Origin: Zanthoxylum bungeanum
Taxonomy: Eukaryota > Streptophyta > Magnoliopsida > Sapindales > Rutaceae
Length of the DNA: 64,000 nt
Direction of reading: 5' to 3'
NCBI GenBank assembly: GCA_019454045.1
Contig: SKCR01015053.1
Location: forward strand, 1-64,000
The position numbers were made by a program, and so were the translations under genes. Within the stretch, counting starts at the first letter, position 1. Every line of letters starts with the position of its first letter. The notes beneath the pieces are model-generated. The model was not told where the DNA came from, searched no databases, and was given only the letters and a program-made list of their open reading frames with translations. Shown here one piece after another: positions 622-36,880 of this stretch.

Positions 622-624
622 AAA

Positions 625-8477: not shown

Positions 8478-8483
8478 AGTTTT

Positions 8484-8501
8484 TGGCGCCGTTGTCGGGG
8501 A
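8484..8501 (+). other. E1 primer-binding site (Asp tRNA)
   Basis: TGGCGCCGTTGTCGGGGA is complementary to the 3' end of plant tRNA-Asp, with one mismatch from the usual GTTGCCGGGGA. This PBS is characteristic of Athila and related Ty3/Gypsy elements. Confidence 0.92.
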
Positions 8502-8609
8502 CTTATTTATCTTTCACTATTAGTTTAGAGGTTAGATACCTTTACTTGTATCTAATTTCTTTTTACTTATTGTTTTTGTTTTCTTGTGTTTCAGGTTCTC
8601 AGAAACTTC

Positions 8610-14169: not shown

Positions 14170-14170
14170 A

Positions 14171-14183
14171 TGGTATCAAGAGC
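14171..14183 (+). other. E3 primer-binding site
   Basis: TGGTATCAAGAGC: the initiator-Met PBS with one extra A compared with TGGTATCAGAGC. Confidence 0.85.
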
Positions 14184-17100
14184 TTTTGTTGCATGAAAAC
14201 CGAATTAGGGTTCTTGAGCAAATTTGGGGCTTTTTGATTTTAGCTTGATTCTGTCTAATTGATTGTTTGAGAATGATTATATATGATTGAATTTGAGTTG
14301 TATGTAATCAATTTGATAAAAAAAATTGATTGGATTGATTTTCCCCAATTTGCTTATTTTTGTCAAAACTTTAATTTGGGTAAACTCGATTTAGGCATGA
14401 TTTGGTTGAATTGTTTGATGCATTATGCTTGAATGAGGTTGAATTGAAGTTGTGCATGATCAATTTCAAGAAATTGGATTAGATCAATTTTCCCCAATTC
14501 TTTAGGTTGAAATTAAACTTGAAATGGGTAAAATGTGTTTAAGCATGTTTTAATTGAATTGGATGTTTAAGTATGCTTAGAACATGTTTAATTGAGATTG
14601 TGTGTGATCAATTTCATGAAATTGGATGGATTCAATTTTCCCCAAATTGGAGGCTTGGCCGAAAATTGGAAGAACCCTAATGTCTTGGTAATTTTGTTTT
14701 GTTTGATCATTGATGACTTAAAACAATTGGTTAATGTTGTTTTGAAGTTCAATTGGATTGAATTTTGATTTAGAACATTTTTTGTCCTTTTAAAGTGGCT
14801 TGGCCGAATCTTAAGGAACATGAAATTCTTTGTGATTTTTTGTTTTAATTCATTGGATGAATTGAATTGATTTGGGAAATTAAGATTGTGGACTCAATTG
14901 GATTGAAACCGAATCGAATTGAAAAACCCCTAATTGCCGAGACTTGAAAGCATGTTAATTGGGTTTGATTTTAATTGAATTGTGTTGGACACTATTTGGT
15001 TGTTAAAATGCATGATTAATTAGGCTAATTGATGTTTTAGAAATGTTAATTGGGTAATTGATTGTGTATTACACTTAGGTTAATTAATTGTGAAATTTGG
15101 AATTTTATAAGTTAATTAATTTGGGCTTGATTTTGAAATTGGGCTTGTTAGGTTGTAATTGGGCTTTTGGGCTTTGTTGTAACAAAGTTGGGTTTAGGCA
15201 AAATTGGTTGGATCCAATTAGGCCCAAAACCGAATCCAAAAGGTCCAATTATGACTTAATGGACCTTAATTATTTAATTGGGCCTAATGGGCCAAAATTA
15301 ATTTAAAGGCTTATGGGGTAACTCCCGGATTGGATTTTGGTTGTTCGGTTTGACCCGAGTTGACCAAAAGTCCACGCCTTATAGAAATTATTAAAAGCCC
15401 ATTGGACTTTAATTAAATAAACATTAGATGTTTATCGGGCTTTGAGACCCGTTGCGATAAATTTGGAATTTAAGTCGTAAAGGTTCATTAATAAAAGTGT
15501 AATATTTAATTTGGAATTAAATAATGAATTAGAATTAAATACGTATTAATTGGATTTAATTATGTAATTTAATTTAATTGTAGGAATCGTACTTTGAGTA
15601 CGTGTTCGCAATACGAGTTTGACTCGAACAAAATCAAATCTTTGTTTGAACATTGGATGATCACTAATAATCAAGATTAATTATTTGATTGATTGATTGA
15701 TAACATGCTTGTATGATACATGGGTGTGATGTTTGAATAATGCATATCGGATGGATATTAGCCGGGTGGGGTGATTTTGGAAATTGTAATAAATTTGATT
15801 TATTAAATTGGACCTGCGTGTCCAGCCTTATCTCCTATTTCTTTGTATTCTCTTCTCACCTATTCCCCTCCATGTAAAAGGGTTTCTTTATAAGTGTAGT
15901 GTAACGGGTAGAAGTAATACAAGTGCTAGCGGGAGAGAGAAAATGAGAGATTTGATCTAGGATCAATGTGTTAAGTATCCATCCGCATATCATTATTATT
16001 TTATTTCATACTCGCTTTATTATGTATTTAGAATGCATGTTTAAGGGTGTATGATGATGAGACCTTAACAAAGATAATTAAATTGGTAGCCAATTTGCAC
16101 CGAAAAACCCTCGTTTTATATTAAGCAAATATCCTTCCCTTGAATGATTCTTGTTCAAGATCCGAAGTTTGCATTGGTTTTTATTGACCAAAGTCAAGAC
16201 CTTGTCATCAAGGATGTACTTGAATCATGAGAGTTTTGTTGCATATCGGTGTCTTGTCCACATCGTGATTTTTATTGGCCAAAGTCAAGGTCACTTTTTG
16301 TCCAATGACATTGATTACGAAACTTTCCTCGTCAATGGGTCCCGCTTAACTGGAATCATTAGGTTTGTTTTTGGCCAAAGCCAAGGCCTAGATGATTCGG
16401 AGGATATGGTTAGGAAAATGTATTGGATACATTGACATTATACATATGTTTCGGACTTGGATGTCCCCTAACCGGATCTAGGAATTGGATGAGATCCAAT
16501 TGATCTGTGAGATCTACCTAGTTAAATAGCATACAGCTTTTTATTGGCCAAAGTCAGGGTTGTGGTTATTTAATGGGATCCTAGCCCACTAGGAAACACG
16601 GTTTCCCGAGTACTCCACAGAGGGTTAGAGGCTCGACGAAAAATAGTGGGAGGCAAGTATTGAATTTGCAACATTCGTTCGATTACTCGCTAAACACGCT
16701 CATTTAAATTATTTCGTCGTTATATTAAATGTTAGTTAGACTAATATTTAAATTGTTGTTTTAATAAACAGTTGGACGTATTATACTTGATTATATATAA
16801 TTGGATTATATTAATCAATATATTTGAATTAATTAATTTCAGTTTACAGTTGATTTTATAATTGGATTATAGTAATCAATGTAATTGAGGTTAATTAATT
16901 TGGATTTAATTTGATTATATAGTTGGACTATTATAATCATTATAATATATATAGTACCACTAATCGGTTGATTAAATAGTTGGACTATTGTAATGAATAA
17001 AAGGAAAAGTGGATATTTAAAATATAATCTGGGATAAAATATTTAAATGATTTAATTTTCAAATTGGGAATAAATAATAGGTTATTTATTTGATAAAATA

Positions 17101-17250
17101 ACTTATTATTACTAAGCCCATAATTAAGCAAATAGTAGAGCATAAAGTCTTTGGAAGATTTATGTGATGATGACTTTAGTGCTTAATTAATATACTTATA
17201 ATAAATCTATCTTTAGATTTAAAAGTATTAAAATGCAATTAATAATTCTT
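14184..17250 (+). other. E3 long non-coding leader
   Basis: About 3 kb, very AT-rich, with repeated TTGGATTGAATT-like stretches and no credible ORF. Four copies of a TTGGCCAAAGTCAAG-type motif lie at 16184, 16275, 16371 and 16544. A 94-codon ORF at 16151-16435 spans three of them but its frame is not kept in the other copies. Confidence 0.75.
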
Positions 17251-20051
17251 GGAGAATTAATTGACTATTCTAGTGGAGAAAAGTCAAAGTTTGCAATTGG
17301 GCATGTAGCACAAGGTGCACATCATTTCAATATCTGAAACCCAAGGATTGCCAAAGGTTTGTGAAATATTGAAAAGATAATTGACATAGTCCCGTAGCGG
17401 ACTACCATTTGGATATGGAAGAAACGAAGGAATTAAAGATAGGGCGGGCTCTAACTTTAAAAAATATTGGTCAAAGTTATGTTCAACAACTAGCATTAAA
17501 ATTGAATTTTAAATACTTAGTGTGGTACATAATACATATATGAATTGATATTCAGAATCTGCTTTGAGCAGGATACTGACTTCAAGCTGAGATTACTCTG
17601 CGAATCGGAAACACGGGAACGAAAGTCCTGTTTCGTCGACCGTAGATACCTAATTTAGGACTACCCTTGGGTGTGTACTTAAATTAGGAACTGTTATAAT
17701 GTAACTAGTTTGACTAGAAACATTATCTCTTTATCAGTGTTTAACCCCACTACGGATAAAACCTTTATATTTAGAACACTAAAGTGTTTAATTATATAAA
17801 GAATGATACTGAGATAAATACATTGGATGTAAATAACAGAATTTATATTTTGAATATAAATAAAATCTCAAACATATAAATTGACAAATAAATAGCTCAA
17901 ATTGATTTGATCAATAGAGACTTATTTGTGGCATTGTTGTCTAGGACACAATTATAGAAGACTCGTATATCCACACTTTTTTAGAGTGGGTACTAGGACT
18001 GATTTGACTATTCAAATAAGGTCTACGAATCTAGTTTATTAGGTTAAATACCTAAAATACTATTTAACTTGGTAATAGTAAAAGGGCCACCGATCTGTTA
18101 GCCCTATTCATGGTGAAGTAAGTGGGCCCATATCTAGCTAGGCTAGATGTGAACATGAATATTTCGTGACCTTAACGGATGTGACATCACGTTGTGGTTA
18201 TGTGTTTCTTTTGAAGAACACAGATCGGAAACTTTAGAGTTTCGACACGAAGTAGAAAAACAGATCGGCTATAGTGTTATGCCGCCACGGTAAAACCGTA
18301 ATGGAAAATACTTAAGCAGTAAGTTTCATACGTAAATGAAAGAGTACGGTATTCCTATGAGGATGATGATAAGGTTTATCACAAGTCGCTCAGAGCTACT
18401 ATCTCCTTCAACCGGATATGTATTTACAGTGCTAAACTTATTTAGAATAAGGTTCCATATAAATCTGTTTGACAGATATCATATAGGATATGAACAGGGA
18501 AGAAACGAGGTTTCTCATTCCTGATAATTTGGGTATGCCAGGCATAGCGTTTGGATGATACCAAACTAAGGACCCAAATTGGATAAGTGCCAATATAGGT
18601 TATCTTAAGGGAAACCTTAAGTATAGTACTTATAAATCCCACATGAGAACAATATGATTGTTGCTCACCATGCGGTTTTCCTGAGAGAAATACCGATATG
18701 CAGTGGTCAGTGGGAGGATAATGATACTCGATGAAAATCGGAAGTAATACTGTTCAAGGCACGAAGTCCGTAATGGAACAAATAGTTCATCTATGATGAA
18801 ACTATACCATTAATCTTCAAATACACAAGAACTTCGTAGATCGGATAGAGTCAGAAAACAACCTAGGGTATGGGTTTCTGATCTAACCTCATAAAGATGT
18901 CAATCTTGTGAAGGTATATCCACCGACTACGTTATGAGGAAGTGATACGAGGTATCGACTCCCTGTTATGGCAAAATGCCGTGAATCCGAAATGGATTTA
19001 CCTGTTGCCATGGTAAATCCATTTTGAAAATGCTTGAAAATAACTGTATATTCATTTATGAAATGTGTCAGTTACAGATCAAATCGCTTTCCTGAAAAGG
19101 AAACCTTTTGGAGAATGTTTACAACATCCTGACGATTTTGTATAACCGATAAACAAGGTTTGCGGGTTATTCGATCCATGTTTGGATCAATGCAAGCATA
19201 AGTTCTTGGAACTGACGTTTTGAAATAATCATAATGGTTTATGATTTGATTCAAAACTAAATAATTCTTGTGTATATAAGGAGGTTAGTGGGAGGGCGCA
19301 CTGACAGTGAAAATTCCCATAAAGCTATCGGTGAAAGCTTGGCTTTCATAAGAAATTCTCCGTAGAATTCTGGGGAGTAACAACCTTTATTCAAGGAATA
19401 AAGATCTACTGTGATAGATTTGGAGTTGTTAACACTCTCTGGAAATTGTACATTTAAAATGTACTTGTATTGGTGTCTCATATGCTTCGAGCATATGGAG
19501 TCACAATCGGGTCAATCCAAGTGATAGTCACTGGATTGAAGATTAAGAACATCTGTTAGTATCTGAGAGAACTAAAGATGTTGTCTTAAACTATGGAGAT
19601 GGAGAACTTGAAGTGACTGGGATCACTGCAGCAAGTTTCCAAACGATTAAATACTACGGTACTATAAAGTTTGAATAACGGGACAGTGAGCTGGAAATCT
19701 TCCAAGCAAGATAACTGTTGCCGAATAAAAACACAAACGCGGATTATTGCTGCAGCTGAGGCAGCAATAGAAGTCTTTTGGATTGAAAAAAATCTAATTA
19801 GATTAGATATGTTCTGTTAGCAGCTGAGCTAGGCGTCAGCACATGCTAAGGAATTAAAGGTCTCATCGACGATCCAGATATACTTCTATATCATCTGATT
19901 CGTTCGGATCATACATCGTGGCGATGTGATGATCGTATAAATCGCGTCAAACGATAATCAAACAAATCCGCTGACGAAAACCTTTCCTCAGCAATTTGAG
20001 CGAATTGTACATAGTTCGGGTGTTAGGCACTCGAGTGACTGGCTATGTGCC
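17251..20051 (+). pseudogene. E3 decayed gag-pol
   Basis: Collinear with the E2, C and D pol remnants but shorter. The zinc-knuckle segment is missing at about 17,400. The protease active site reads as a degraded trace at about 17,505. Integrase lies at about 18,110-18,460 (YFVT and GYVFLLKN readable), an RT trace at about 18,990-19,300 without YVDD, and an RNase H trace at about 19,590-20,040 ending WLCAKWE before the PPT. Stops are everywhere. Because the LTR pair is almost identical, pol was dead before this copy inserted. Confidence 0.82.
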
Positions 20052-20061
20052 AAGTGGGAGA
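20052..20061 (+). other. E3 polypurine tract
   Basis: AAGTGGGAGA, adjoining the 3' LTR. Confidence 0.92.
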
Positions 20062-20062
20062 T

Positions 20063-22186
20063 TGTTGGATAATATGACCCATAGGGTCACTATTTGCACA
20101 GATCATTGTGTTGTTGTAGCAAATTAACTATGTAATAAGGAAATTGCACTCTCATCATTTGTGATTAGATCACCATAGATATATAAATGAAGAGAGGTCC
20201 CTATGATTAGTTCCTGGATTGAGATGATATGAGACAGTATCAGTCCACGAAGGATTAATCATTAAATATCCCTAGCCGTAGTATTATCGAGACTGGACAT
20301 CGATAATGCGGAATAGGCTAGTATTGCACTTGTGCGTGTTGTGAGGGCACAACGGCATAGTTCTCATATATATAAGTATTGGATACTTATGCAAGTGCGA
20401 TAGGAGGTCGTGTTTCACACCGATGGTACGGGAAACAGCTTCGCTCTGGATAGACCCCTCGGAATCCCATTGGTATTATGACTATGTGTCTATGGGAGGC
20501 CGAATCAAGGTAGGTGTGTATGGTCTTAACCTGAGACTTACATCGCTAATACTTACGATAATCGATAAACTTGGTTTTGGTGGTAGGGGACTTTTAACAG
20601 GTTCTGCGTACACCACTTCTGGGTTTATCAGAGAGTCATAGAGTATTGGGTGTGATGTCAAGACGGAAGTGTCACTTCAGTCATATTGGAGTTGATGTCA
20701 CGCAGGATACGGTACTAGTGCTCTTGAGTGTTGCGCAACCAATCGGGATATTGTGACCAGGTCATGTATATCCGATTATAGAGACTATGTTACCAGACCC
20801 GATATGTGCTTCGGACGGGGTAGACACTTATCCAGCCCCAGCCCTAGCACGTGATTATCCGATATTGGGCTAATATACACAATACTACGGTATACTACGC
20901 TTGATACAGATCTATATATCCTGTAAGAATATTTCTGGAGAATTGGGTAGGCATGGCGCTTTGCTAGAAGCCAACCTTGTCTTGTAAATCGATATAAACG
21001 TAGTACGGGTACTTACGTGTTCGGACAGTCCGACGATCGTATTTACTGCCAACATATCCGGAGATCTCTTGGGTCGCTTCCTGAAGATTCACCGATGATG
21101 TATAACTCGCACTTAATTAATCAGGGATTAATTAGAAGAGAGATAGAATTAATCTGGGATTAATTCGAAGAGAGAGAGAATTAATCTGGGATTATTAGCG
21201 GAGATATTATCTGGGATATAATATTAATTAAAGAGAGAGAACGATTAATTTGGAATTAATCGATAAAATAATATATTTGATATATTATTAGAAATTGGAT
21301 TTCGACGCGAAATTAAAATTAGATTTTAATTCGGGCGAACGAATTAATTTAGAATTAATTCGTTAGCGACGTGAATAGTGATTTCGCTAGGCGTAATCAT
21401 TTAATTACGACGCGACGAAAATTCGTTAATTTGGAATTAGCGAACCCGAGCCCGAGAGTGATTGCGAGCGCATTCGCATTTCGAATTCGAGCGCGGCACG
21501 CGAGTCACATCAAGCGTCAAATCGCTAGTCGCGTCAATCGTCAAATCAATTGTCACTTTGAGTGATGTGACTTGACAACATGTCACTTTATTAAAGTGAT
21601 GTGATGTGACTTAAAGTAAAAAGTAGAAATGATGGAAAGCTTTATTGCTTTTTATTTTTGACTTTTGAATTAAAAGTAATATATATATTTTTATTTAATT
21701 TACTTGGTAAATAAAATAAAGATATATATTAAATCTTTTCTCTCTCTTACATGCAAGATACGGTTCTTCATTTTCCCTCTCTTTTCCTCTCATCTTCTTC
21801 ACGGCTTCACTGCGATTTTCTTCTCTTATTTTTCTGGTTTCACCGAAAATTTGAGAAGCAAAATGGAAGATGAACAAGTGGTAGCACACCTTGAGTAATA
21901 CATAGGTGATAGGGAAGTGTCTTCATGAGCTTGGAAAGCTTGAAGCTTGGAGCTTCAATGGAGTCTTCAATGGCCGAACGTGGAGGAGACTTTCACAGCC
22001 CCAACCGTGCATCCACAGCAGTTCACAGGACCATTGCCGAGCTTGGAGGGAGGCAAAAACCGCATGTTCTTCATTTCATCAAAACCGTTCATGTGAGTTA
22101 TGTTTCCGCCTTACTCCTTTGATGTGTTCATATGCGGTTTTTATGCATGATTTGTTGATCTTGGGACTTGATTTAAAACTCCTACA
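20063..22186 (+). repeat. E3 3' LTR
   Basis: Near-identical partner of 12040-14169, ending CTCCTACA and followed by CATGC. Confidence 0.95.
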
Positions 22187-23923
22187 CATGCAAGTGTAAT
22201 AGGAGGTTGTGTTTTACCGATGGTACGGGAACAAGCTTTGCTCTGGATAGACCCCTTCAAAATTCCATTGGTAGTATGACTATGTGTCTATGGAAGTCCG
22301 GAATCAGGGTAGGTGTATTTGGTCTTAACCTGAGACTTGCACCGCTAATACTTGCGACAATCAATACTTTGGTTGCGGTCGTCCAGGGCTTTAACAGGTT
22401 CTGTGTACGCCTATGGTGGGTATATTGAGAATCGTAGTGTGTTGGGGGTGTGTCAAGACGGAAGTGTCACTCTAGTCATATGGAGATGATGGTCGTTAGG
22501 ATACGGTTACTGGTTCTCTTAAGTACTGCAGTCATCGGGATAAAATGACAAGGTCAATTTTATCCGATTATAGAGACTAGTCACCAGACATCTGACATGT
22601 GCTTCGTACGGGGCAGACACATTTCCAGCCCTAGACCTAGCACGTTATCATCCGATACTGGATCGACATACACAATACTATGTATACTACGCCTGATATA
22701 GATCCTTTATTCCTGTAAGGATATTTCTGGAGAATTGGGTAGGCATGGCGCTTTGCTAGAAGCCAACCTTGTCTTGTAAATCGGTATAAACGTAGTACGA
22801 GGTACTTACGTGTCGGATAGTCCGACGACCGAATTTACTGCCAACATATCCGGGGATCTCATGGGTCGCTTCCCGAATATTCACCGATGACATATGACTC
22901 ACACTTTTATTAATCTGGGATTAATTAGAAGAGAGAGAAAATTAATCTGGGATTAATTACGAAGATATTTTACATGGGATAAAATATCAATTAAAGAGAG
23001 ATAACGATTAATTTGGAATTAATCGATTAATTAATATATTCGATATATTAAACAAGATTGGATTTCGACGCGGAATTAAAATTAGATTTTAATTCGGGCG
23101 AATGAATTAATTTAGAATTAATTCGTTAGCGACGTGAATAGTAATTATGCTAGGCATGATTATTTAATTAAATTAGATTTAATTACGACGCAACGGAAAA
23201 TTCGTTAATTTGGAATTAGCGAACCTGAGCCCGGGATTATTTGCGAGTGCATTCGCATTTCGAATTCGAGTGCGGCACGCAAGCCAAATCAAGCGTCAAA
23301 TCGCTAGTCGCTTCTAGCGTCACATCATTCGTCAATCAAGTGATAGATGTCTTTCACTTTGAGTGATTGACGCCAGGCCACTATTCATTGATTGATGGAT
23401 TGATGGAGTGATGTGTGTGGTTGGAGCCATTAAGGCTTGACTTTTGGAAAGAGAAAAATGTGTAATTAATTTTATAAATTAATTATGTGTATTAGATACA
23501 CTTTTTGGCAACAAAATAGATACAACACTCTTCTCTTTCTTCTTATCTCTCTCACGCCCATGGAGGGCTTTTTCTCTTCTGGTTTCAGCTCATAAACCGT
23601 GAGCTAGAGGGAAGCAAAGTGGGATTTATGTGGCAAAAATCATGAGAGCTAGCACTCCGAGAGACATGCAAAGGTCATAAGGAAGTCTACACATGAGTCG
23701 GGAATCATTTGACGAAGCTTGGAGCTTGACGAAGAACCTCCAATGGCCGAAAACAGTGGACTGCACACAGCCACTGCCGTGAGCTTCCCAGTGAGTAGAA
23801 TTTGTTTTGTTTGTTGCCGCTTCGCTCAACCGATCGATGTGAGTATTCCGCAACTTCTTTGATTTGTATCGTACTTATTTCATGCTTGTTTATTGATCCT
23901 TGGGACCTTAGCAAACACCAACA
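22187..23923 (+). repeat. E2 5' LTR, part 2
   Basis: Resumes with the second CATGC (22187-22191) and AAGTGTAATAGGAGG and ends ACACCAACA before the PBS. Matches the E2 3' LTR from about 29,914 to 31,602. A hairpin array like that at 13092-13425 lies at about 22,910-23,225. Confidence 0.9.
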
Positions 23924-23924
23924 A

Positions 23925-23937
23925 TGGTATCTTGAGC
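23925..23937 (+). other. E2 primer-binding site (diverged)
   Basis: TGGTATCTTGAGC keeps TGGTATC but has a changed 3' half compared with the canonical TGGTATCAGAGC. D shares the CTTGAGC ending. Confidence 0.8.
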
Positions 23938-26500
23938 AATGTTGAGCATGAAATTTGATTTAGGGTTAAAATTTGGGTAAATTGATTTTGAGCATGATTT
24001 AAATAAATTGGATGTTTGAATATGCTTAAATCATGTTGAATTGAAGTTTGATTGGATCAATTTCATGAAATTGTGATTGGATCATTTTTCCCCAAAATCT
24101 TAGCTTGGCCGAGAATGATGCCCTATTTTAATGTCTTGGATTTTGATTTTTTGATTCATTGGATGAGTTAGAATCATGTTGGGGATGTTGATTTAATATT
24201 TAATTTGATTCAATTGGATTGGATTTGAAATTGGATATAAATTTCCCCTTGGCCGAGACATATATAAAGCATGATTGGGTTTGATTTTGATGAAATATGT
24301 TGGACATGTTTTGTAGTAATTGAGTATGATTAATTGTATAAATTAATGTTTTGGAAATATTGATTTGGGTGATTAATTGTGTTATACACTTTATGTAATT
24401 GGGCCCAAAACTGCATCCATAAAGCCCAAATGCGACTTAATGGACCTTTAAAGTTTAATTGGGTCTAATGGGCCAAAATTGATTTCTGGGCTTATGGGGT
24501 AATTCCCGGATTGGATTTTGGTTATTCGATTTGACCCGAGTTGACCAAAAGTCCACGCCTTAAGAAATTAATTAAAAGCCCATTGGACTTTAATTGAATT
24601 GACGTTGGACGTTAATCGGGCTTTGAGACCCATAACGATTAAATTTGGAATTTAAGTCGTAAAGGTTTATTAATAAAGTGTAATATTTAATTTGGAATTA
24701 AATAGCGAATTAGTATTAAATACAAATTGAATTGGATTTAATTTTGTAGTTTAATTTAATTCGAGAATTCGTACTTTAAGTACTTATTCGCAAAACGAGT
24801 TTGACTCGAGCAAAATCAAATCATTGTTTGAACATTGGATGGTCACTAATTATCAGATTAATTAATTTGATTAGATTGATTGATAACATGCTTGTGTGAA
24901 TACATGGTTGCGATGCATGAATAATGTATATCGGATGGATATTAGATGGGTGGGACAATTTTAGAAATTGTTGTAATAAATTTTATTTATTAATTGGACC
25001 TGCGTGTCCAGCCTTATTACCTACTTATTCTTTGTATTCTCTTCTCACCTATTCCCCTAAATGTAAATGAGATTTCTTTAGAAGTGTAGTGTAACGGGTA
25101 GAAGTAAATACATGTGCTAGCGGGAGAGAGAAATGGAGAGATTTGATCTAGGATCATTGTGTAAAGTATCCATCCGCATATCATTATTATTTTATTATAC
25201 GTGCTTTATTATGTGTTTAGAATGCATGTTTAAGGGTGTATGATGATGAGACCTTAACAAAGATAATAAATTGGTTGCCAATTTGCACTCGAAAAACCCT
25301 CGCACAATATTAAGCGTATTTCCTTCCATTGAGTGATTCTTACTCAAGATCCGAGACTGGCATTGGCTTGTTGGCCAAAGTCAAGGCCTTTGTCCGTCGA
25401 GGATGTGTTTGAATCACAAAGGCTTTGTTCCATATGGTGTCTTGTCCAAGTTGTGGTTGTTGGCCAAAGTCAAGACCACTTCTTGTCCATCGACATTGAT
25501 TACGAAGCTTTCCATGGTCAATGGGTCGCGCTTAACTGGGATCACTAAGTTTGTTGTGCCAAAGCCAATACTTAGTTGATTCAGAGGAAAAAGGTTAGGT
25601 AATATATTGGATATATTGATATATATAAGATATATGTTTCGGACTTGGATGTCCCCCTACTAGATCTAGGAATTGGATTGGATCCAATTGATCTTAGAGA
25701 TCTACCTAGTTATTTATCATACAATTTGTTGGCCAAAGTCAAGATTGTGTGATATTTAACGGGATCCTAGCCCGCTAGGAAACAAGGTTTCCTGAGTACT
25801 CGATAGAGGGTTAGAGGCTCGCCGAAAAATAGTGGGAGGCAAGAATTGAATTTGCAATATTCGTTTAATTACTTGCCATACGCGCTCAAACAAATATAAT
25901 TCTTCAAATGAATTAAATGTAGTTGGACTAATATTTAAATGTTGTTTTGATAAATAGTTTGACTATATTCAAACTATTCATTTATAGTTGATTTTATAAT
26001 TGGATTATAATATCAATATAATTGATTTTAATCTATTAAATTATAGTTGATTAAATAGTTGGACTATAATAACATTATAATAAATAGTACCGGAAATCGT
26101 TGATAAATAGTTGGACTATTAAAATCAAGATAAAATTGAAAGATTGACATTTAAAACATAATCCTAGGGAAATGTATTTAAATGGTTTATTTAATTTTCA
26201 AAATTGGGAATACTTTCAGGATGGTCCTGGAAACTAATAAGTTACTTTATTTGATAAAATAACATATTATGCTTATGCCGGAGTTAAGCAAATAGTAGAG
26301 CATAGTCTTTGGAAGATTTATGTAATGATAACTTTAGTGCTTAATCCATTATACTTACCGCAGTAGACTCATTGATTTCTTTGTCAGAACTAAGGGTTAG
26401 ATCCTTAAAGTATGATAATGAAATTGAAGGATCTTCATAAATCTATACTTAGATTTTAGAAGTACTAAAATTGCAATAGTAAACTCTTGGAGAGTTAATG
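23938..26500 (+). other. E2 long non-coding leader
   Basis: About 2.6 kb with no sustained ORF. It contains the conserved TTGGCCAAAGTCAAG-type motifs at 25371, 25460, about 25,555 and 25729, and several X-TGG-X' inverted repeats near 24,600-24,760. No protein is recognisable. Collinear with the leaders of E3, C and D. Confidence 0.75.
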
Positions 26501-29500
26501 GCTATTCTCAATGAGAGAAAGTCAAAGTTTGCAAGAGGCAAGTAGCGCAAGGCGCACCTTACTTCGATATTCTAGAAGGCCAAAGCTTGGCCAAAGCTTC
26601 TGGAATATGAAAAGGTGAAAAGGGCAAAGGCAAAATCATTATAATCTTCTGGGAAGATAAATGAAATAATCTGCCTAAATGTGGCAAACGGAATTGCGGA
26701 AGCGTGATTGCCGTTTGGACAAAGCAGACATGAAGGAATTGAAGGCGAGCAAGGCTCTGACTTCAAATATGTTTGTCAACATTATGTTCACTACTAGTAT
26801 TGAAATTGGATTTTAAATACTTAGTATGATACATATAAAATATATGTATTGATGTTCAAAATCTGTTATGAACAGGATACTGAATTCAATAGAGAATAAT
26901 CTGCGAATTGGAAACGGGACGAAAGTCGCTGTTTTAACCGTAGATACGTAAAATTAGGAACTGCCCTTCAGGTGTGTACCTAAATTTGGAAATTGTTATA
27001 ATGTAACTAGTTTGACTAGAAACATTATCTCTATATCAGTGTTTAACCCGCTGCGGGTGAACCTTTATATTCTAGAACACTAAAGTGTTTCATTATATAA
27101 AAATGATATTGAGATATACACATTAGATGTGAATGACAGCATTTATATTTTGAATATAAATAAAATCTCGAACATATAACATGACAAACAAACAGCTCAA
27201 ACTGATTTGACCAGGAGAAACTAATTTGTGGCATTGTAGTCTGGGACACAATCTAAAACAAGAATCGTATATCCGCACTTTTGAAGAGTGGGTATTAGGA
27301 CTGATTTGATCCCATTCAAATAAAGTCTACGAATCTAGTTTATTGGGCAAAGTGCCTAAAACACTATTTACTTGGTAAAAGTGCAAATGCCATCGATCTG
27401 TTAGCCCTAGTTCATTGTGAAGCAAGTGGGCCCATATCTAGCTAGTCTAGAGGTGTATATGAATATTTCGTGACCTTTACGGATGTGGCATCGCGTAATG
27501 GTTATGTGTTTCTTTTGAAGAACACAAATCGGAAACTTTTAAGTTTCGACACGAAAATAGTCAAACAGGTCGGCTAAAGTATTTTACCGTTACGATAAGA
27601 CCGTAATGGAAAATACTTAAGCAATAAGTTTCTCGTATACTTGAAAGAGTATAGTATTCTTTCAAGGAGTACGCGTTCCGGAAACACGTCAGTTGACGGT
27701 GTGTCCGAACTAAGTAACCAAATTTTGTTGGACATGATAAGGTTAATCATGAGTCACTCTGAGCTACCATTTCCTTCAACGGATAAGCATAAACAGTGCA
27801 TAACTTATTTATAATAAGGTTCCATAATAATCTGTTTGACATATATCATATTAGATATGAACAGGAAAGAAACCAGGTTTCTCATTCCAGAATGTTTGGA
27901 TATGCTTGGCATATGTTTGGATGATACCAAACTAAAACCCAAATTGGATAAGTGCCAATTATAGGTTATCCTAGGGATACCATAAATATAGTACTTATAC
28001 AACTCACAAGAGAACAATTAGATTGTTGCTCGCCATGCGGTTTTCCTAAGAGGAATACCGATATGCAGTGGTAAGTGGGAGGATAGTAAAACTCGATGAA
28101 AATCAGAGTAATACTAATCCAGACACCAAATCTTAATGGAACATAAATATTCATCAAGGATGAAACTATACCATTAATCTTCGAATACACAAGAACCGCG
28201 TAAAGTCGGAGAGAGTCAGAAGACAACCTGAGGTATGGGTTTTTGATCTCACCTTATAAAGATGTTAATATTTTGAGGAATACCAACTGACTACGTATGA
28301 GGAAGTGATACAAGGTATCAACTCCCAATTATGACAAAGTGTCATGAGTCCGAAATGGATTCCATGTATAATCAACTTAGTTTGGATACTAGTTATTGTA
28401 CCGCAAGGCATTGTGCCTATTGGTACTTATAAGTCTTCAAGGAAGACATACATGGATGGCCACATACCAACGTATAAAGCTAGGCTTTTAGCGAAAAGGT
28501 ATCGTTATCAAGATTATGTTGATTTCGATTCAACCTTTTACCTGTTGCCACGGTAAATCCATTTGGATAATGCTTGCTAATGCTGCATTTTTCATTTATG
28601 AAATATGTCAGCAGAACGGGAAATCTCTTTCCTAAAAAGGAAACCTTTTGGAGGATGTTTACAACATCCTGTCGGTTTTGTCGTACCATAACAAGCAAAT
28701 AAGGTTTGCAGGTTATTCGATCCATGTTTGGATTGAAGCAAACATAAGTTCTTGGAATTATCGTTTTGATGTAATCATAATAGTTTATGATTTACTTCAA
28801 AACGAAATGATTCTTGTGTATATAAGGAGGTTAGTGGGAGCGCACTGACATAAATGTCCTATAAATAATGATAATATGTCATTTCTTGGAAATGATATTC
28901 CCATAATAATAATAATCGGTGAAAGCTTGGCTTTCGAGAAAATTCTCCGTGAACGTACATTGAAAAATGTACGCGACCTGGTGTCTCATACGCTTTGAGC
29001 ATATGAAGGTACAAACAGGCCAATCCAAGTGATAGTCATTGGATTGAAATTAAGAACATCCGTTAGTATCTTAGAGAACTAAGGATGCTGTCTTTAACTA
29101 TGGAGAAGGAGAACTTGAAGTGACTAGGATCACTGTAGCAAGTTTCCTAAACCTATTAAACGACTATAAGTCACATAAGGTACTATACAGTTTGAATAAT
29201 GGAACAGTGAGCTGGAAATCTTCCAAACAAGATACTGTTACCGAATAAACAACAAATTCGGGTTATTGCTGCAGCTGAGGCGGCAATAGAAGCCATTTGG
29301 GTCGATAAAAAATCTAATTAGATTTGATATAATTCTGTTAGCAGCTGAGCTAGGCGTCAGCACAGGCTAAAGAATTAATGGTCTCCTCAACGATCCAGAT
29401 ATATACTTCGATATTCATCTGATTCGTTCGGATCATACATCATGGCGATGTGATGATCGTATAAATCGCATCAGACGAAAATCATGCAAATCCCCTAACG

Positions 29501-29573
29501 AAAGCATTTCTCAGCAGTTTGAGCCAACCGTACATAGTTCGGGTGTAAGCCACTTGAGTGACGGGCTATAGGC
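26501..29573 (+). pseudogene. E2 decayed gag-pol
   Basis: Order of remnants: a Gag knuckle trace at about 26,660-26,720 (GGCAAACGG), a protease active-site trace at about 26,812, a GAG-pre-integrase trace at about 27,225, and integrase at about 27,418-27,800 (FVTFTDVAS and GYVFLLK still readable). RT follows at about 28,380-28,890 (GNLLEDVYN readable; catalytic YVDD lost), then RNase H at about 29,100-29,560 (AAEAAIEAIWV). Stops and frameshifts occur throughout. The +2 indel after GTTTCTTTTGAA in integrase is shared with E3 and D. Confidence 0.82.
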
Positions 29574-29574
29574 C

Positions 29575-29584
29575 AAGTGGGAGA
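29575..29584 (+). other. E2 polypurine tract
   Basis: AAGTGGGAGA, immediately before the 3' LTR. Confidence 0.9.
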
Positions 29585-29585
29585 T

Positions 29586-31602
29586 TATTGGACAATTATG
29601 ACCCATAGTGTCACTATTTGTACAGATCATGGTGTTGTTGTACAAATTGACTATGTGAGAAAGGAGATTGCACTCTTATCATTTGTGATTAGATCACCTA
29701 GATATATAAATGATAGGTGGTCCCTGTGATTTGTTCCTGGATTGAGAATGATATGAGACAATATCAATCCACGAAGGATAAATCATTAAATATCCCTAGT
29801 CAGAGTATTATCGAGATTGGACATCGATAAATACGTAAAATACTAGTATTACACTTGTGCGCGTTGTGAGGGCATAACTGCATAGTTCTCATATATTTGG
29901 GTATAAGATACTCATGCAAGTGTAATAGGAGGTTGTGTTTTACCGATGGTACGGGAAACAGCTTCGCTCGGGATAGACCCCCTCGGAATTCCATTGGTAG
30001 TATGACTATGTGTCTATGGAAGTCCGGAATCAGGGTTGGTGTATTTGGTCTTAACCTGAGACTTGCACCGCTAATACTTGCGACAATCAATATACTTTGG
30101 TTGCGGTCGTCCAGGGCTTTAACAGGTTCTATGTACGCCTATGCTGGGTATATTGAGAATCGTAGTGTGTTGGGTGTGATGTCAAGACGAAAGTGTCACT
30201 CCAATCATATGGAGATGATGGTCGGTAGGATACGATACTGGTTCTCTTAAGTACTGCAGTCATCGGGATAAAATGACAAGGTCATGTTTATCCGATTGTA
30301 GAGACTAGTCACCAGACATCCGACATGTGCTTAGTACGGGGTAGACACAATTCCAGCCCCTGGCCTAGCACGCGATCATCCGATACTGGATCGACATACA
30401 CAATACTACGTATACTACGCCTAATCTAGATCCTTTATTCCTGTAAGGATATTTCTGGAGAATTGGGTTGGCATGACGCTTTGCAGAAGCCAATTGTCTT
30501 GTAAATCGGTATAAACGTAATACGAGGTACTTACGTGTTCGGATCATCCAACGACCGAATTTACTGCCACACATATGGGGGATCTCATGGGTCGCCGAAT
30601 ATTCACGATGACGTATGACTCACACTTTTATTAATCTGGGATTAATTAGAAGAGAGAGAAAAATTATAGGGATTAATTACAGATAACGATTAATTTGGAA
30701 TTAATCGATTAATTAATATATTCGATATATTAAACGAGATTGGATTTCGACGCGGAATTAAAATTAGATTTTAATTCGGGCGAACGAATTTTTAGAATTA
30801 ATTCGTTAGCGACGTGAATAGAATTATGCTAGGCATGATTATTTAATTAAATTAGATTTAATACGACGCAACGGAAAATTCATTAATTTGATATTAGCGA
30901 ACCCGAGCCCGAGATTATTTACGAGCGCATTCACATTTCGAATTCGAGTGCGGCACGCAAGTCAAATCAAGCGTCAAATCGCTAGTCGCTTCTAGCGTCA
31001 CATCATTCGTCAATCAAGTGATATATGTCTTTCACTTTGAGTGATTGATGCCAGTCACTATTCATTGATTGATGGATTGATGGAGTGATGTGTGTGGTTG
31101 GAGCCATTAAGGCTTGACTTTTGGAAAGAGAAAAATGTGTAAATAATTTTGGAAATTAATTATGTGTATTAGATACACTTTTTGGCAACAAAAATAGATA
31201 CAACACTCTTCTCTTTCTTCTTATCTCTCTCACGCCCATGGAGGGCTTTTTCTCTTCTGGTTTCAGCTCATAAACCGTGAGCTAGAGGGAAACAAAGTGG
31301 GATTTTTGTGGCAAAAATCATGAGAGCTAGCACTCCGAGAGACATGCGAAGGTGATAGGGAAGTCTACCCATGAGCCGGGAATCATTTGACGAAGCTTGG
31401 AGCTTGACGAAGAACCTCCATGGCCGAAAATAGTGGACTGCACACAGCCACTGCCGTGAGCTTCCCAGTGAGCAGAATTTGTTTTGTTCGTTGCCGCTTC
31501 ACTAAACCGATCGCGATGTGAGTATTCCGCAACTTCGTTGATTTGTATTCGCACTTATTTCATGCTTGTTATTGATCCTTGGGACCTTAGTAAACACCAA
31601 CA
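29586..31602 (+). repeat. E2 3' LTR
   Basis: Starts TATTGGACAATTATGACCC (G-to-A in the terminal TG) and ends ACACCAACA. About 2.02 kb. Clearly more diverged from its 5' partner than the E3 pair, consistent with an older insertion. Confidence 0.92.
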
Positions 31603-33097
31603 CTACCAACATCAATCAATAGTGACATGTTGTCACATCACTCAAAGTGACTAGACATCACATCAATCGATTGACAAATGATTTGACGCTAGATGTGACT
31701 TGTGGGCAGCACTTTAATTCGCAATGCAAGTGCACCCGCAAACACTCCCGGGCTCGGGTTCGCTAATCCCAAATTATTGAATTTTCCGTTGCGACGTAAT
31801 TAAATAATTACGCCTTACAAAATCACTATTCACGTCACTAACGAATTAATTCTAAATTAACTTGTTCGCCCGAATTAATTCTAAATTTAATTCCGCGTCG
31901 AAATCCAATTTCGTATAATATATCGAATATATTATTTTATCAATTAATTCCAAATTAATCGTTTTCTCACTTTAATTAATATTTTATCCCAGATAAAATA
32001 TCTCCGTAATTAATCCCAGATTAATTTTCTCTCTCATCTATAATTAATCCCATATTAATAAAGTGTGAGTCATACGTCATCGGTGAATCTTCGGAAACGA
32101 CCCATAAGATCCCCGTATATGTTGGTAGTAAATCCGGTCGTCGGACTATCCGAACACGTAAGTACCTAGTACTACGTTTTTATCGATTTGCAAGACAAGG
32201 TTGGCTTCTAGCAAAGCGCCATGCCTACGCAATTCTCCAGAAATATCCTTACAGGAATATGTGATCTATATCAGGCGTAGTATACGTAGTATTGCGTATT
32301 TCGATCCAGCATCGGATGTCACGTGCAAGGCCTGGGGCTGGAATTGTGTCTGCCCCGTACAAAGCACAATCTCTGGTAACTAGTCTCTATAATCGGATAA
32401 TCATGACCTAGTCATAATATCCCGATAGCTGCAGCATATAAGAGAACAAGTTCCGTATCCTACGTGATCACATCTCCACTATGACTCGAGTGATACTTCC
32501 ATCTCGACATCACACCCAATACACTACAATTCTCAATATACCCAGAAGAGGCGTACACAGAACCTGTTAAAGCCCTGGATGACCAAAACCAAAGTATATT
32601 GATTGTCGCATGTATTAGCGGTGCAAGTCTCAGGTTAGACCAAATACACCTACCCTGATTCGGACTTCCATAGACACATAGTCATACTACCAATGGAATT
32701 TCGAGGGGTCTATCCAGAGGGAAACTGTTTTTCTTACCATCGGTAAAACACAACCTCCTACTACACTTGCATGAGTATCCTATACCCAAATATATGAGAA
32801 CTATGCCGTTATGCCCTCACAACGCGCACAAGTGTAATACTAGTCTTTTCCGTATTATCGATGTCCAATCTCGATAATACTCTGACTAGGGATATTTAAT
32901 GATTAAACCTTCGTGGATTGATACTGTCTCATATCATCTCAATCTGGAACTAATCATATGGACCTTCTACCATTTATATATCTTGGTGATCTAATCACAA
33001 ATGATAAAAGAGCAATTTCCTTTGTCATATAGTTAATTTGTACAACAACACCATGATCTGTACAAATAGTGATACTATGGGTCATAACTGTCCAACA
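31603..33097 (-). repeat. Family X solo LTR, minus strand, right part (LTR 5' end)
   Basis: Resumes the solo LTR after the second CTACC copy (31603-31607) and ends ...TCCAACA, the reverse complement of the LTR start TGTTGGA, followed by TTAAG at 33098. Together with 11206-11707 it gives one complete LTR of about 1.99 kb with no internal domain, so LTR-LTR recombination removed the rest before E2 inserted. Confidence 0.9.
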
Positions 33098-33102
33098 TTA
33101 AG

Positions 33103-33165
33103 CACTACTGGGGAGAATCATTTGAGCGACAAAAAGAAAGTGTCACACTTTCAGATCCAGCCTAA
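33103..33165 (+). pseudogene. E1 integrase C-terminal domain, part 2
   Basis: After the second TTAAG copy the frame resumes with HYWGESFERQKESVTLSDPA and stops at TAA 33163-33165. Skipping the insertion and one copy of the duplication places it exactly in frame with 10900-11205. The downstream GCAGGGAGGCAACCC is a recurrent Athila post-integrase motif. Confidence 0.88.
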
Positions 33166-33362
33166 CGTTAGAGAAGTCACGTCTAACTGTCGACGTTAAA
33201 CTTAGCGCTAGCAGGGAGGCAACCCATGCAATTTGTGTATATATTGTGATTTGGTGTGATTTAATTTTGTGTGTTTATTTTTTGCAGATTAAGACATTTC
33301 AGGATGGAAGAAGTTCTCATAAATTTCACAAGTAATTTCCTTCTCTCCCTCAAAACTCTCTG
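33166..33362 (+). other. E1 post-integrase spacer with acceptor-like sites
   Basis: Non-coding. Contains GCAGGGAGGCAACCC (about 33,209-33,230), then a T-rich run ending TTTTTTGCAG with AG at 33286-33287 and a second CATTTCAG with AG at 33301-33302. Both look like plant 3' splice sites. Athila env-like genes are generally thought to be made from spliced RNA, so these may serve the ORF at 33363; that is inference. A short ORF from the ATG at 33304 ends at TGA 33361 and is in another frame. Confidence 0.55.
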
Positions 33363-33815
33363 ATGAAAGTCTACAAAGCTTGCTTAGAACGGATGAGTTT
33401 ACTAACGATCCATGGTGTTTCTAAAGATATTCGTTGGGTAATTGAAGCACGGGTCCGATTGGCAGGTGAGTCTTCTGACTCTTTTATTTCACATCTGCCT
33501 GGTTTTGGAAGAAGCACCTATGAAAAGAAACGTAGAGCTAAGCAAATGGGTGTTTGTTACAAATGTGCACGCTGGAATTGCAATACTCGTTGTCGTTCTT
33601 TAGGAATGGTGTCTGATAATCGCGAAGATAAAATTAAATTCATTAGGGATGGCTTGAGTAAGGAGTCTGTAGATAATATATCTTCGACTCTTGAGACGCA
33701 TCCCAGTGGATATGTTCATATAGCCATTCACAAATTACATACACAATTTCAAAAAGAAAAACAACATTTAAGTCTCGGGAATTTGACTCAAAAAGACCCT
33801 GTTTGCCAATTATAA
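33363..33815 (+). CDS. Basic cysteine-rich protein resembling flexivirus nucleic-acid-binding proteins, carried by E1
   Basis: 150 codons, ATG at 33363, uninterrupted to TAA; the frame opens at 33336, so this is its first ATG. The centre is GRSTYEKKRRAK (residues 49-60), then C65, C68, C73 and C77 (CX2CX4CX3C), then KIKFIRDGLSKE (90-101). A basic Arg/Lys run preceded by GRSxY and followed at once by a CxxC finger is the hallmark, from family knowledge, of small cysteine-rich proteins of carlaviruses and related flexiviruses. Those bind nucleic acid and often suppress RNA silencing. The N-terminal half (GVSKDIRWVIEARVRL) also fits that layout. The C-terminal 45 residues (helical, Gln/Lys-rich) go beyond the usual viral length. 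It sits where Athila elements have env-like genes. Alternatives are a Gag-like finger or a plant protein I do not recognise. The ORF is secure; the family call is moderate. Confidence 0.62.
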   Translation: MKVYKACLERMSLLTIHGVSKDIRWVIEARVRLAGESSDSFISHLPGFGRSTYEKKRRAKQMGVCYKCARWNCNTRCRSLGMVSDNREDKIKFIRDGLSKESVDNISSTLETHPSGYVHIAIHKLHTQFQKEKQHLSLGNLTQKDPVCQL

Positions 33816-34100
33816 GAAAATTGGATGGGAAGCTTGTCCCTAACGCATAGACGTCATTCAAGCCGCTAATTTTCTTGTAAATATTATATCTCTTTGTCTT
33901 TTCCTAATAATTATAATTTGTTTTGTTGTTTTCTTTTATTTTCTCCGACAGGATCCAGAACTTTTTGACTATCACGATTTATTTTACTATTAACTAATAA
34001 TTGTCATTTGGTAGGTATTAGTGCTATTATTTTACTCACCCTTTTCAGGTGTTATAAATTCAACTCATTATTGCACTTTTGAAGACATCCAGAGTAAAAC
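33816..34100 (+). other. Spacer between the two E1 cargo ORFs
   Basis: T-rich, non-coding. Two acceptor-like sites are visible: TTTCTCCGACAG (AG at 33950-33951) and CACCCTTTTCAG (AG at 34047-34048), the latter 52 bases before the LOG ATG. They could allow separate spliced messages for the second ORF; untested. Confidence 0.5.
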
Positions 34101-34670
34101 ATGGAAGCCACTTCAAGAAGGCGAGTTGAAAACATCTGTGTGTTTTACGGAACTAGTGTTGGTGTTAAGCCACAATACGTAAAAGTAGCACATGAATTGG
34201 GTCGAGTCTTAGCTGCAAGGAATATGCACTTAGTATATGGCGGAGGCAATCTTGGAATTATGGGGATCGTTTCAAAAGCCGTACATGAAGGAGGCAGTCA
34301 CGTTTTGGAAATCATTCCAAAACCCTTGGCGGAGGCAAATATTATTGGACCATCAAACGGAGATGAACTGATCGTGCCAGGTATGTCTGAACGATTGGTA
34401 GAAATGATTAACTGTGCTGATTCGTTTATTGCTTTGCCAGGTGTCTTGGGCACATTGGAGGAAATTTTTATAGTGCTATCTTGGGCGAACTTGAACATAC
34501 ACCAGAAACCAATTGGGCTGTTTAACGTTGATGGATTTTATGATTTTCTTTGTGTGTTTCTTGATGATGCTCGGAGAAATGGGTTCGTGTCAAAACCTAT
34601 GAAAGAACTCCTCTATACTGCCAGAACTGCTCCGGATCTAATAGACCAACTCTTAGCCTATGAACCATAA
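34101..34670 (+). CDS. LOG-like: LOG-type cytokinin riboside 5'-monophosphate phosphoribohydrolase, intron-free, carried by E1
   Basis: 189 codons from ATG 34101 to TAA, with no intron. LOG enzymes release active cytokinin bases from their riboside monophosphates in the cytosol. Family motifs in order: ICVFYGTS (12-19, usually ICVFCGSS), LVYGGGNLGIMG (44-55, nucleotide loop), MSERLVEM (95-102, usually MxxRKxxM), ALPGVLGTLEE (111-121, usually PGGxGTxxE), HQKPIGLFNVDGFY (134-147) and a C-terminal LAYEP. Length and motif spacing are near those of plant LOGs (about 200-220 aa), with a short N-terminus. Plant LOG genes normally have several introns, so an uninterrupted copy between Athila integrase and PPT suggests capture through RNA. 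Two changes, Gly to Val in PGG and Lys to Leu after Arg98, touch the signature motifs, so activity is uncertain. An ordinary retroposed LOG that landed there independently is the alternative. Confidence 0.9.
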   Translation: MEATSRRRVENICVFYGTSVGVKPQYVKVAHELGRVLAARNMHLVYGGGNLGIMGIVSKAVHEGGSHVLEIIPKPLAEANIIGPSNGDELIVPGMSERLVEMINCADSFIALPGVLGTLEEIFIVLSWANLNIHQKPIGLFNVDGFYDFLCVFLDDARRNGFVSKPMKELLYTARTAPDLIDQLLAYEP

Positions 34671-34814
34671 GTTGACCCTATCCTTTCAAAGATAAATTGG
34701 TCCGAGGACGATCGTGGTAAGAGGCGTCGGATTAATCTGGATCTTAACCTTTAATTTCCTGTAGAATTTTAGCTAACCAGGTATTATCTTCTAAACTCTT
34801 CTTCTACTGTTTAA
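34671..34814 (+). other. E1 spacer between LOG-like ORF and stem-loop
   Basis: Non-coding; no poly(A) run of the kind expected at the end of a LINE-mediated retrocopy directly follows the stop codon. Leads into the stem-loop and PPT. Confidence 0.5.
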
Positions 34815-34832
34815 GACATTGGGGACAATGTC
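34815..34832 (+). other. E1 stem-loop upstream of PPT
   Basis: GACATTG-GGGA-CAATGTC: a perfect 7-bp stem with a 4-nt loop. An ACATTGxGGACAATG element upstream of the PPT recurs in Athila-type elements, so it supports assigning this region to E1 rather than to flanking host DNA. Confidence 0.75.
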
Positions 34833-34844
34833 TCATTTAGGTTT

Positions 34845-34855
34845 AAGGGAGGGAA
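34845..34855 (+). other. E1 polypurine tract candidate
   Basis: AAGGGAGGGAA, 12 bases after the stem-loop. The true 3' LTR start is not identifiable because the comparable 5' LTR start is missing. Confidence 0.65.
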
Positions 34856-35258
34856 TTAGTTGATCAGTACCTTGTTTTTAGTTTGTGTGTTGTTTTTATT
34901 TTTAGTCCAATATTTTTCGAAAAATACAAAAAAAAAATTGAAAAATTTTCAAAAATTACAAAAATATTTTGTGTTTTTATTTTAACTAAAAAGGTGAAAT
35001 TGGTAAGAGATAGCTGTGTAAGGAATTTCCACTCCTGAGACGTATCTCAAACCATTTTTGAAACAAGTTAGTTTTTGTTTATTTCATTTTAAATTATTTA
35101 ATTTGTAAATTCTCCATAAAACTGACTAAAATAGATCTTCATATGCTCAGTTAGCAGATATTATCAACATGCATTGTAACATACGGACATGAGCTAAAAT
35201 TGAAAAGTTTGTAATATTAAATGCTCTAGTTTAATTGGAGGAAGCATCTCAAAAAGTG
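34856..35258 (+). other. E1 3' untranslated / possible LTR start region
   Basis: AT-rich with an A/T homopolymer patch at 34,918-34,970 typical of Athila 3' regions. No gene. It ends at the truncated LTR of element B. No match to 7738-8477 was seen by eye, so either this precedes the 3' LTR or it is the LTR part missing from the left. Confidence 0.5.
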
Positions 35259-36880
35259 ATGGTTTATCACATGGATGCATGAGTTGCCCGTGTCCATCGA
35301 ACTGACCGCCGAAAGTTTTCACATGGAGTTTTTATCCCATGTGTTTGTGAGAACTTTCATGTATCGATTGTATGACTAGTCCTTAGACTTGAGGTCTTTA
35401 CAATCTTATGTGTGGATCAAATAACTTTGACATTCTCATTCCCAGGTTCAAAAGATCTGATCATAAGGGTATGATTGGGTCATTTGTTGAAACACATGAA
35501 GTTTGTAAAGATACAACATAGAATCGCCACTCTCTCGGATAATATTTTCTTATAGGAGTAGTATTCCAGTTCGTGGGTTGATATGTGTGATCAGTGCTTG
35601 AGACTGTAGCCGCAGCGGAAGAATCATGTGAGATTCTTGGGTTAGCACGATTTATGACACTATCAACATCATACATTTGACTAAATGGGTATACATTTTC
35701 CATACCCTAGGTCAAACGGTGGGGATACAGTGAGGCGAGAAAACGTATCATATGTAAATCGCATACAAAATGGGTATATATATCTTTTCTTCTCATTTGG
35801 GGGCCTTGCCATGTGCTAGATGTCAACCTTGGTCATTGAAATCAAACGACAATCTAATCAGAGGATAATTTATGTTCGATTAAATTATCAAGATTCATTT
35901 CATGTCCAACTTGAGGGGAACCCAAAAGGTCACACACAACAAAGTCGAAATCAATGGTTAACAGTGCACAATACAAATTTAATAACATATATGATTGCTG
36001 TAGGAATTGTTCATAATGGTTCAATGTGTTTAATTATTGAACAGATCATTTATGAGGTTCCATAGTGGCTTAGGGATTGGTGAATGACGATAGGGGCACT
36101 TTGGGAATTGGAATAAATAAATAAAAACATGAATAATGATGTGAATAGTAAATTTTTTTTATTTGTTATTTGGTTTGAATTCCAATTCAGCCCAAACTCT
36201 TATTAGGGTTTTATAATCTCATTAAACCACTAAATTAAGATCTAATGGCTAAGATTAAATTAGCATTTATCCCACATCGGATTCTTAATTAATTTTGTTG
36301 TCTTTGGAACACCTATATAAACCCAAAGAATTCCTTACAAATTTTTGTACCAAACATTTCATATCTTGGGTTTATATAAGTGAGTAACTCTAAAGTTTAA
36401 GAGTAAGCCACTGATTTTGAGGATCCTTAAGTCTAATTGACTAGAGGAACCTCGAGTTAAAAGTTTTGAGGTATTTGCCTAGGCTAGCACCAATGGCAAA
36501 ATACCCGTGCACTCAAGGCATAGTTTTGCCGTTGAGTTTTGGCTTTGGTGTGTGCACTTTTGGAGGCCACAAACTTGGGTGGCTCTTGGAACGTGGAAGA
36601 GAATGCTGAGTTCAAGAATAGCTTGTAGATTGGAGGAATGACTGGAGGAGTCTTCAGTTCAAGTAAGTCTTTTTCTTTCTTTATTTTTAATTAGAGTTCT
36701 TATGATATTCAGCATGTTTAAGTTTATGTTCTTTGCATGTTTTATGAGTTTATATGCTTAGAATATATAGTAATATGCCTAGGCTTGTAGAATAATAAAA
36801 ACAAATGGGTTTTGGGCAAAGGGATAGCGGCATCATAATTTTTTAATTTTCCGCTGCGCACTCGCGGCCGCTTCCTAACA
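35259..36880 (+). repeat. Element B 5' LTR, 5' end missing
   Basis: Matches 62138-63769 of the 3' LTR with high similarity and ends CTTCCTAACA before the PBS. The first 310 or so bases present at 61826-62137 are absent. Short ORFs within it are not conserved between the LTRs. Confidence 0.92.
36314..36321 (+). promoter_or_regulatory. Candidate TATA box of element B 5' LTR
   Basis: TATATAAA in the context CACCTATATAAACCCAAAG, kept unchanged in the 3' LTR at 63203-63210. Position about 570 bases before the LTR end fits a U3/R border. Confidence 0.6.

Follow-up and report, generated by a model that had tools for sequence, protein, structure and literature searches.

A LOG-family gene and a virus-like cysteine-rich gene in an abundant Athila-type retrotransposon family of Zanthoxylum bungeanum

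The locus examined here lies in a window of 64,000 nucleotides of Zanthoxylum bungeanum DNA and raises the question of how a reading frame of the LOG family, known for cytokinin activation, came to reside in a retrotransposon, and whether it belongs to the element that surrounds it. When the sequence was re-read, positions 34101-34670 of the forward strand were found to hold an ORF of 189 amino acids that runs from ATG to TAA without an intron. Profile searches placed its product in the LOG family (PF03641, E=1.6e-31; TIGR00730, E=1.2e-44, over the family cut-off), the first of these matches ruling out a chance ORF, and the nearest solved structure was that of At2g37210 (2a33, E=9.3e-53, residues 4-189). 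The original prediction of a LOG-family gene at this place, made from the letters alone, is confirmed by these matches. On the strict equivalog profile NF058542 the ORF scored 101 bits against a cut-off of 300. The gene had also been called near full length. This holds in that the structural match extends from residue 4 to the last of the 189, but the frame ends early: codon 190 is a stop in the window copy, while 54 of 59 copies read Q there. The window ORF is a truncated form of the element LOG. In other copies the frame continues through codons 190-217 (window positions 34668-34751), and open copies mostly finish with a basic run and LDLNL, presumably an EAR-like motif; both are missing from the window ORF because of its stop. 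The PGGxGTxxE-type motif is present in most element copies, and its PGG is changed to PGV in the window.

To classify the carrier, we considered LTRs, target site duplication (TSD) and primer binding site (PBS), the order of gypsy domains, and the absence of an additional RNase H (aRH). Judged by these features, the element bearing LOG, together with the second gene (CRP) described below, is a Ty3/gypsy element of Athila type, with LOG in the env slot between pol and the 3' LTR. One complete copy (C47139) has LTRs that start with TGATGA and ATACT on both flanks as a 5-bp TSD. Its 5' LTR is followed by the PBS TGGCGCCGTTGCCGGGGA, which we take to fit tRNA-Asp. The two LTR slices compared (2,149 and 2,161 bp; K2P 0.041) each extend about 6 bases beyond the LTR end, so that the LTRs are about 2.15 kb long and their distance is about 0.04; at the rice substitution rate of 1.3e-8 per site per year, this corresponds to an age of about 1.5 million years. 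Upstream of CRP and LOG, one locus (L040) encodes RVT_1, RT_RNaseH, H2C2 and rve in that gypsy order, and another (L041) encodes RVT_1, RT_RNaseH and H2C2 (integrase zinc-binding). No second RNase H family was detected in the RNase H-integrase pieces of these two copies, even at E up to 5; aRH is described as separating Tat from Athila in the excerpted text of PMC6317226.

LOG had been placed between an integrase end at 33165 and a stem-loop with polypurine tract (PPT) that would mark the LTR edge. The integrase border stands, as the integrase tail ends at 33162, but the purine tract at 34841 is ruled out as the LTR-edge PPT by the 3' LTR starts of other copies: where the LTR start was read, the 3' LTR (TGATGAGCGG...) begins about 1.4-1.5 kb past LOG and is preceded by a different purine tract. 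The env slot itself was correctly recognised, LOG occupying the same place in all 39 loci found by DNA search, window included. The pyrimidine-rich stretch ahead of LOG (Table 1) may be splice-acceptor-like; similar AG-ending sites end at 33287 and 33951, and for the most part such sites are conserved in CRP-bearing and gag-only copies alike.

Table 1. Features of the LOG-bearing element in the window
Feature	Position	Strand	Basis
3' part of the 5' LTR of the LOG element; front cut by a Copia element at 1-7737	7738..8477	+	LTR match
Primer binding site, one base off TGGCGCCGTTGCCGGGGA of C47139	8484..8501	+	sequence comparison
gag region, longest open part 8763-9788	8619..10193	+	PF03732 7.2e-20; 88% identical to L042 gag
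Protease region fused straight to integrase C-terminal region	10242..11211	+	tblastn, separate pieces
Nest of other repeats (21.9 kb) splitting the element	11206..33099	.	repeat comparison
Integrase tail end	33097..33162	+	tblastn
Decayed cysteine-rich nucleic-acid-binding-like gene (CRP)	33304..33850	+	PF01623, PF05515; open stretch 33336-33815
Pyrimidine-rich stretch ending in AG ahead of LOG	34030..34048	+	conservation between copies
LOG-family ORF, 189 codons and stop	34101..34670	+	profiles, structure relative, copy alignment
LOG frame remainder as in other copies, reaching about 34754; 3' non-coding beyond	34671..35262	+	copy comparison
Inverted repeat and purine tract named in the original prediction	34815..34855	+	conserved, away from LTR edge

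The window copy is of a protease-fused type; other insertions interrupt it, and its 5' portion spans approximately 7738-11205. The LTR remnant, whose end was read from the sequence, is 95.4% identical to the 5' LTR of C47139 from LTR position 1407 onwards. In a tblastn search, the RT, RNase H and integrase core pieces of L040 had no match in the window. Homology to other copies stops at 35262, and neither the window nor the 8 kb that follow it yielded a 3' LTR. With the stop at LOG codon 190, PGV in place of PGG and a frameshift in CRP, this copy is decayed.

The second gene, absent from the original prediction, lies just upstream of LOG and matches nucleic-acid-binding families of carlaviruses and allexiviruses. 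In the window, its open stretch matches PF01623 at 3e-5 and PF05515 at 5.8e-5, and the gene is frameshifted, with bases missing and a stop at codon 11. Open copies encode a CRP of 182 aa. At E up to 0.01, PF05515 was found in all nine open copies tested and PF01623 in eight of them; the PF05515 score of one copy, L002 (19.4), is below the gathering score of 23. The profile match to the viral proteins spans the basic and cysteine-rich core, whereas the element CRP has an additional C-terminal part and rides in a retroelement. The structure model of the window CRP ORF had a mean pLDDT of 36.8, too low for any conclusion on the fold. CRP relatives were found neither in viral_contigs nor in phages, collections that are not expected to contain many plant RNA viruses. 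PF05515/PF01623-type proteins of plant RNA viruses act in silencing suppression or as transcription factors; CRP would be a gene common to a retroelement and plant RNA viruses. Among the 39 loci, CRP was recognised in 31 and was absent or lost in eight. Its copies fall into two principal clades with a DNA similarity of about 84%.

We then examined how widely the two genes are distributed in the window's own assembly (3.96 Gb, 51,709 contigs). An exact 30-mer of LOG occurs at 17,426 sites (8,719 + 8,707), and its reversed control at none. As some known copies lack this 30-mer (29 of 37 DNA-ranked and 17 of 20 protein-ranked ones contain it), the true number of LOG copies is probably about 20,000 to 22,000. 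For CRP, a 24-mer that 22 of 28 CRP rows contain occurs at 9,652 sites, and a 28-mer of the autonomous-type integrase, common to all five autonomous-type loci, at 504; the latter is the weakest of these figures, because its prevalence was estimated from five loci and integrases of greater divergence would escape. Among the 100 LOG places at the head of the list, 30 are preceded, at a distance of 910-972 bp and on the same strand, by the CRP k-mer. This is a family of jumping genes in thousands of copies, many of them without the parts for autonomous movement.

When 40 of the 5,985 first-look candidates of the DNA search were scored, all 40 were full length at 94-100% identity, window included. 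Typing of 39 loci (again with the window) by motifs in their upstream translation yielded five with the autonomous-type integrase tail, 25 protease-to-integrase-tail fusions, five gag-only loci and four unclear ones, namely L001 and L003, which have other repeats upstream, L037 and L039. Six further upstream pieces comprised four that appeared gag-only and two protease-fused ones with CRP. LOG is therefore carried also by derivatives without RT and by gag-only ones. Among the best-scoring matches only, the matched stretch was free of stops in 132 of 150 for LOG (18 with stops, counted by eye) and in 108 of 150 for CRP (42 with stops). Through codon 189, LOG is open without gaps in 17 of the 39 DNA-found copies.

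The LOG gene has been amplified together with the element. The expectation that other elements would carry the same ORF at the same place was borne out by the 39 DNA-found loci and the 17,426 30-mer sites. That mobile cargo should be seen in full copies with TSDs of their own was borne out in part, by one complete copy (C47139) with paired LTRs and a 5-bp TSD.

As for the origin of the gene, it had been proposed that a plant LOG was captured through a spliced RNA. A host LOG was found twice, in L069 and L070 (contigs C42560 and C2730), and its match falls in four separate pieces, which indicates at least three introns in the matched span; the expected contrast between intron-bearing plant LOGs and the intron-free element ORF is thus present in this genome. 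The two host sequences are 97.7% identical over 5.2 kb and represent either two alleles assembled into different contigs or a duplication of recent date. Further host LOGs may be missed because repeats crowd the search. Identity between the host LOG and the element LOGs is 42%. In a tree of nine element LOGs (of 59 aligned), three plant and three bacterial LOGs, the element LOGs group in a single clade that excludes the three plant LOGs (40-46% identity) and stands next to them on a branch of considerable length (0.73), with plant and bacterial splits supported at 98 and 95. Because the element LOGs form a single long-branch clade outside the plant ones, the comparison does not point to the examined host LOG as a recent donor, and a capture of that kind was not supported. 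A bacterial or phage origin was considered as well. One bacterial relative was found (41%) and none in viral_contigs, and this origin was rejected; the tree sets the element LOGs beside the plant ones, with the caution due to a long branch.

In the encoded protein, 35 of the 42 positions that do not vary among six cellular LOGs are retained in at least eight of nine element LOGs, among them R98, P113, G115, G117, T118, E120 and E121. However, the likewise invariant K99, L122, E124, Q130 and G132 are replaced in all nine, and LOG activity or specificity may therefore differ. A first selection test gave p=3.2e-5 for 58 copies, including 20 ranked by LOG protein, and p=0.063 for the 38 DNA-ranked copies alone. 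Omega was estimated at 0.763 for 38 DNA-ranked copies (p=0.009), 0.661 for the 17 open DNA-ranked ones (p=0.005), 0.637 for 57 copies not ranked by LOG protein (p=2.4e-9), 0.486 for 19 copies picked by CRP (p=6.3e-11), 0.484 for 58 copies, 20 of them protein-ranked, and 0.383 for ten copies taken as gag-only type (four protein-ranked; L039 unlabelled). These tests were run without L007, whose LOG is identical to that of L006, and the 57-copy set also without the misaligned L081. Shared LOG transversions (21 nonsynonymous : 5 synonymous, opportunity 932:202) look neutral, and methylation hot spots may inflate the shared synonymous changes. In CRP, fixed differences between clades, compared in 24 of 30 aligned rows, amounted to 28 nonsynonymous : 20 synonymous against an opportunity of 1217:343 (p=0.0025; transitions p=0.034, transversions p=0.155), while omega over 27 of the 30 rows was 0.836 and not different from 1 (p=0.12). 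Evolution of LOG below neutrality is supported by these comparisons, if partly confounded, and constraint during replication of the family followed by decay is supported, not proven.

What could the two genes do for the element? It is quite possible, if short of probable, and the likeliest of the readings weighed here, that this Athila-type family carries CRP and LOG as an accessory module, both proteins being made by the element and aiding its transmission via host cells. CRP and LOG would be made, now or until recently, from element RNA, probably from spliced or subgenomic mRNAs; the largely conserved pyrimidine-rich AG sites before both genes would suit the former. LOG would free active cytokinin from nucleotide precursors in the expressing cells, CRP might bind nucleic acid and dampen silencing or alter transcription, and together they would favour dividing, permissive cells and thereby transmission of the family. 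Non-autonomous carriers may provide LOG and in return borrow, in trans, RT and integrase. That an open LOG frame leads to cytokinin release, and this to a larger number of transmitted copies, is our inference. An unlikely, more far-reaching version is a two-gene host-manipulation module that stands where env would be and combines an RNA-virus-type protein with a cytokinin-activating enzyme. If this were true, the element would influence cell proliferation from inside the genome, in parallel to the external action of gall-forming microbes, and carriers without RT, much more numerous than autonomous ones, would persist by retaining the hormone gene.

Alternatively, LOG and CRP might have been captured once, without purpose or with a purpose since lost, and merely copied along. 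We regard this as a real though somewhat doubtful possibility, in which deletions happened to take RT and integrase first and the open frames reflect recent bursts. It would account for the star-like tree with long terminal branches, the neutral ratio of shared LOG transversions, the replacement of several residues near the active site and the 22 of 39 DNA-found copies in which LOG is not open through codon 189. However, omega was below 1 in every LOG set tested, the 35 of 42 invariant positions were retained over a long branch, and the CRP fixed differences deviate from neutral opportunity. It is also conceivable, if improbable, that the LOG stretch has been retained for a cis-acting reason (RNA packaging, splicing or 3' processing) and not for its protein, given that LOG and its 5' and 3' flanks persist in gag-only derivatives without CRP and that flanking non-coding sites are conserved too; the codon-level constraint and the motifs shared with cellular LOGs nevertheless fit a protein. 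Only the absence of introns speaks for an ordinary host LOG or processed retrocopy lying by chance in a retroelement, an explanation of almost no probability that is excluded by the copy number (17,426 k-mer sites), by the constant place in the element and by the mere 42% identity to the intron-bearing host LOG.

Retroelements with comparable genes have been reported. According to the excerpted text of Alvarado-Marchena et al. 2022 (PMC9289625), gypsy consensuses of Citrus sinensis and C. clementina contain YgdH, a domain also found in LOG proteins, elements with YgdH appear in Populus trichocarpa once the filter of that paper is removed, and the result agrees with Steinbauerova et al. 2011, cited there. 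A LOG gene in plant gypsy elements is therefore already known and not new, and the original remark that no Athila element with such cargo was known is incomplete in this light. As in the present family, the Citrus and Populus elements carry the LOG-type domain as an extra gene; they were compared by the named domain alone, whereas here the Athila type, the env slot, the CRP neighbour and the RT-less carriers are added. From the same excerpt, orchid Ty3/gypsy elements with a captured AlkB-type RNA demethylase likewise hold a recognisable enzyme as a stable extra gene of a gypsy lineage, but that enzyme is a different one with activity shown in vitro, while LOG here is known from its sequence.

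The accessible part of PMC2410132 describes Arabidopsis Athila elements lacking pol that retain gag and env under purifying selection, a precedent that we count in favour of a LOG and CRP module. These elements resemble ours in placing an additional gene after pol and ahead of the 3' LTR and in having non-autonomous derivatives that retain coding genes, and recombination between their subfamilies is a further likeness to the LOG family; their extra gene is env-like, in contrast to LOG, often with CRP, here. The word cytokinin did not occur in the parts of PMC7264820 and PMC11728184 at hand, and among the best-ranked matches in the open-licence literature no title concerned a carlavirus-like gene in LTR elements or its pairing with LOG. 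The pairing with a virus-like gene, the Athila-type place, the copy number and the many RT-less carriers look new. Extra genes of plant retroelements mostly lack a known function; with LOG far commoner than integrase and retained where RT is lost, it becomes directly testable whether genes of this sort serve the element.

The surroundings of the window copy are themselves rich in repeats. The Copia element at 1-7737 (LTRs 1-621 and 7114-7737, 95.2% identical; rve and RVT_2 ORFs at 2534-4786) sits inserted within the 5' LTR of the LOG element. A repeat pair of about 1.6 kb (35263-36880 and 62152-63769, 93.4% identical) begins, in its first member, where homology of the LOG element stops, and a Copia-type Pol_BBD ORF lies at 58398-59204. 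Positions 11700-57800 form a dense nest of repeats that have a unit of about 1.5-2 kb in common, in both orientations. Finally, positions 1-2662 of L003 correspond to window positions 32598-35262 (2.66 kb at 96%) and include the same junction of another repeat with the LOG element at 33097/33098, which indicates that this chimera was itself duplicated.
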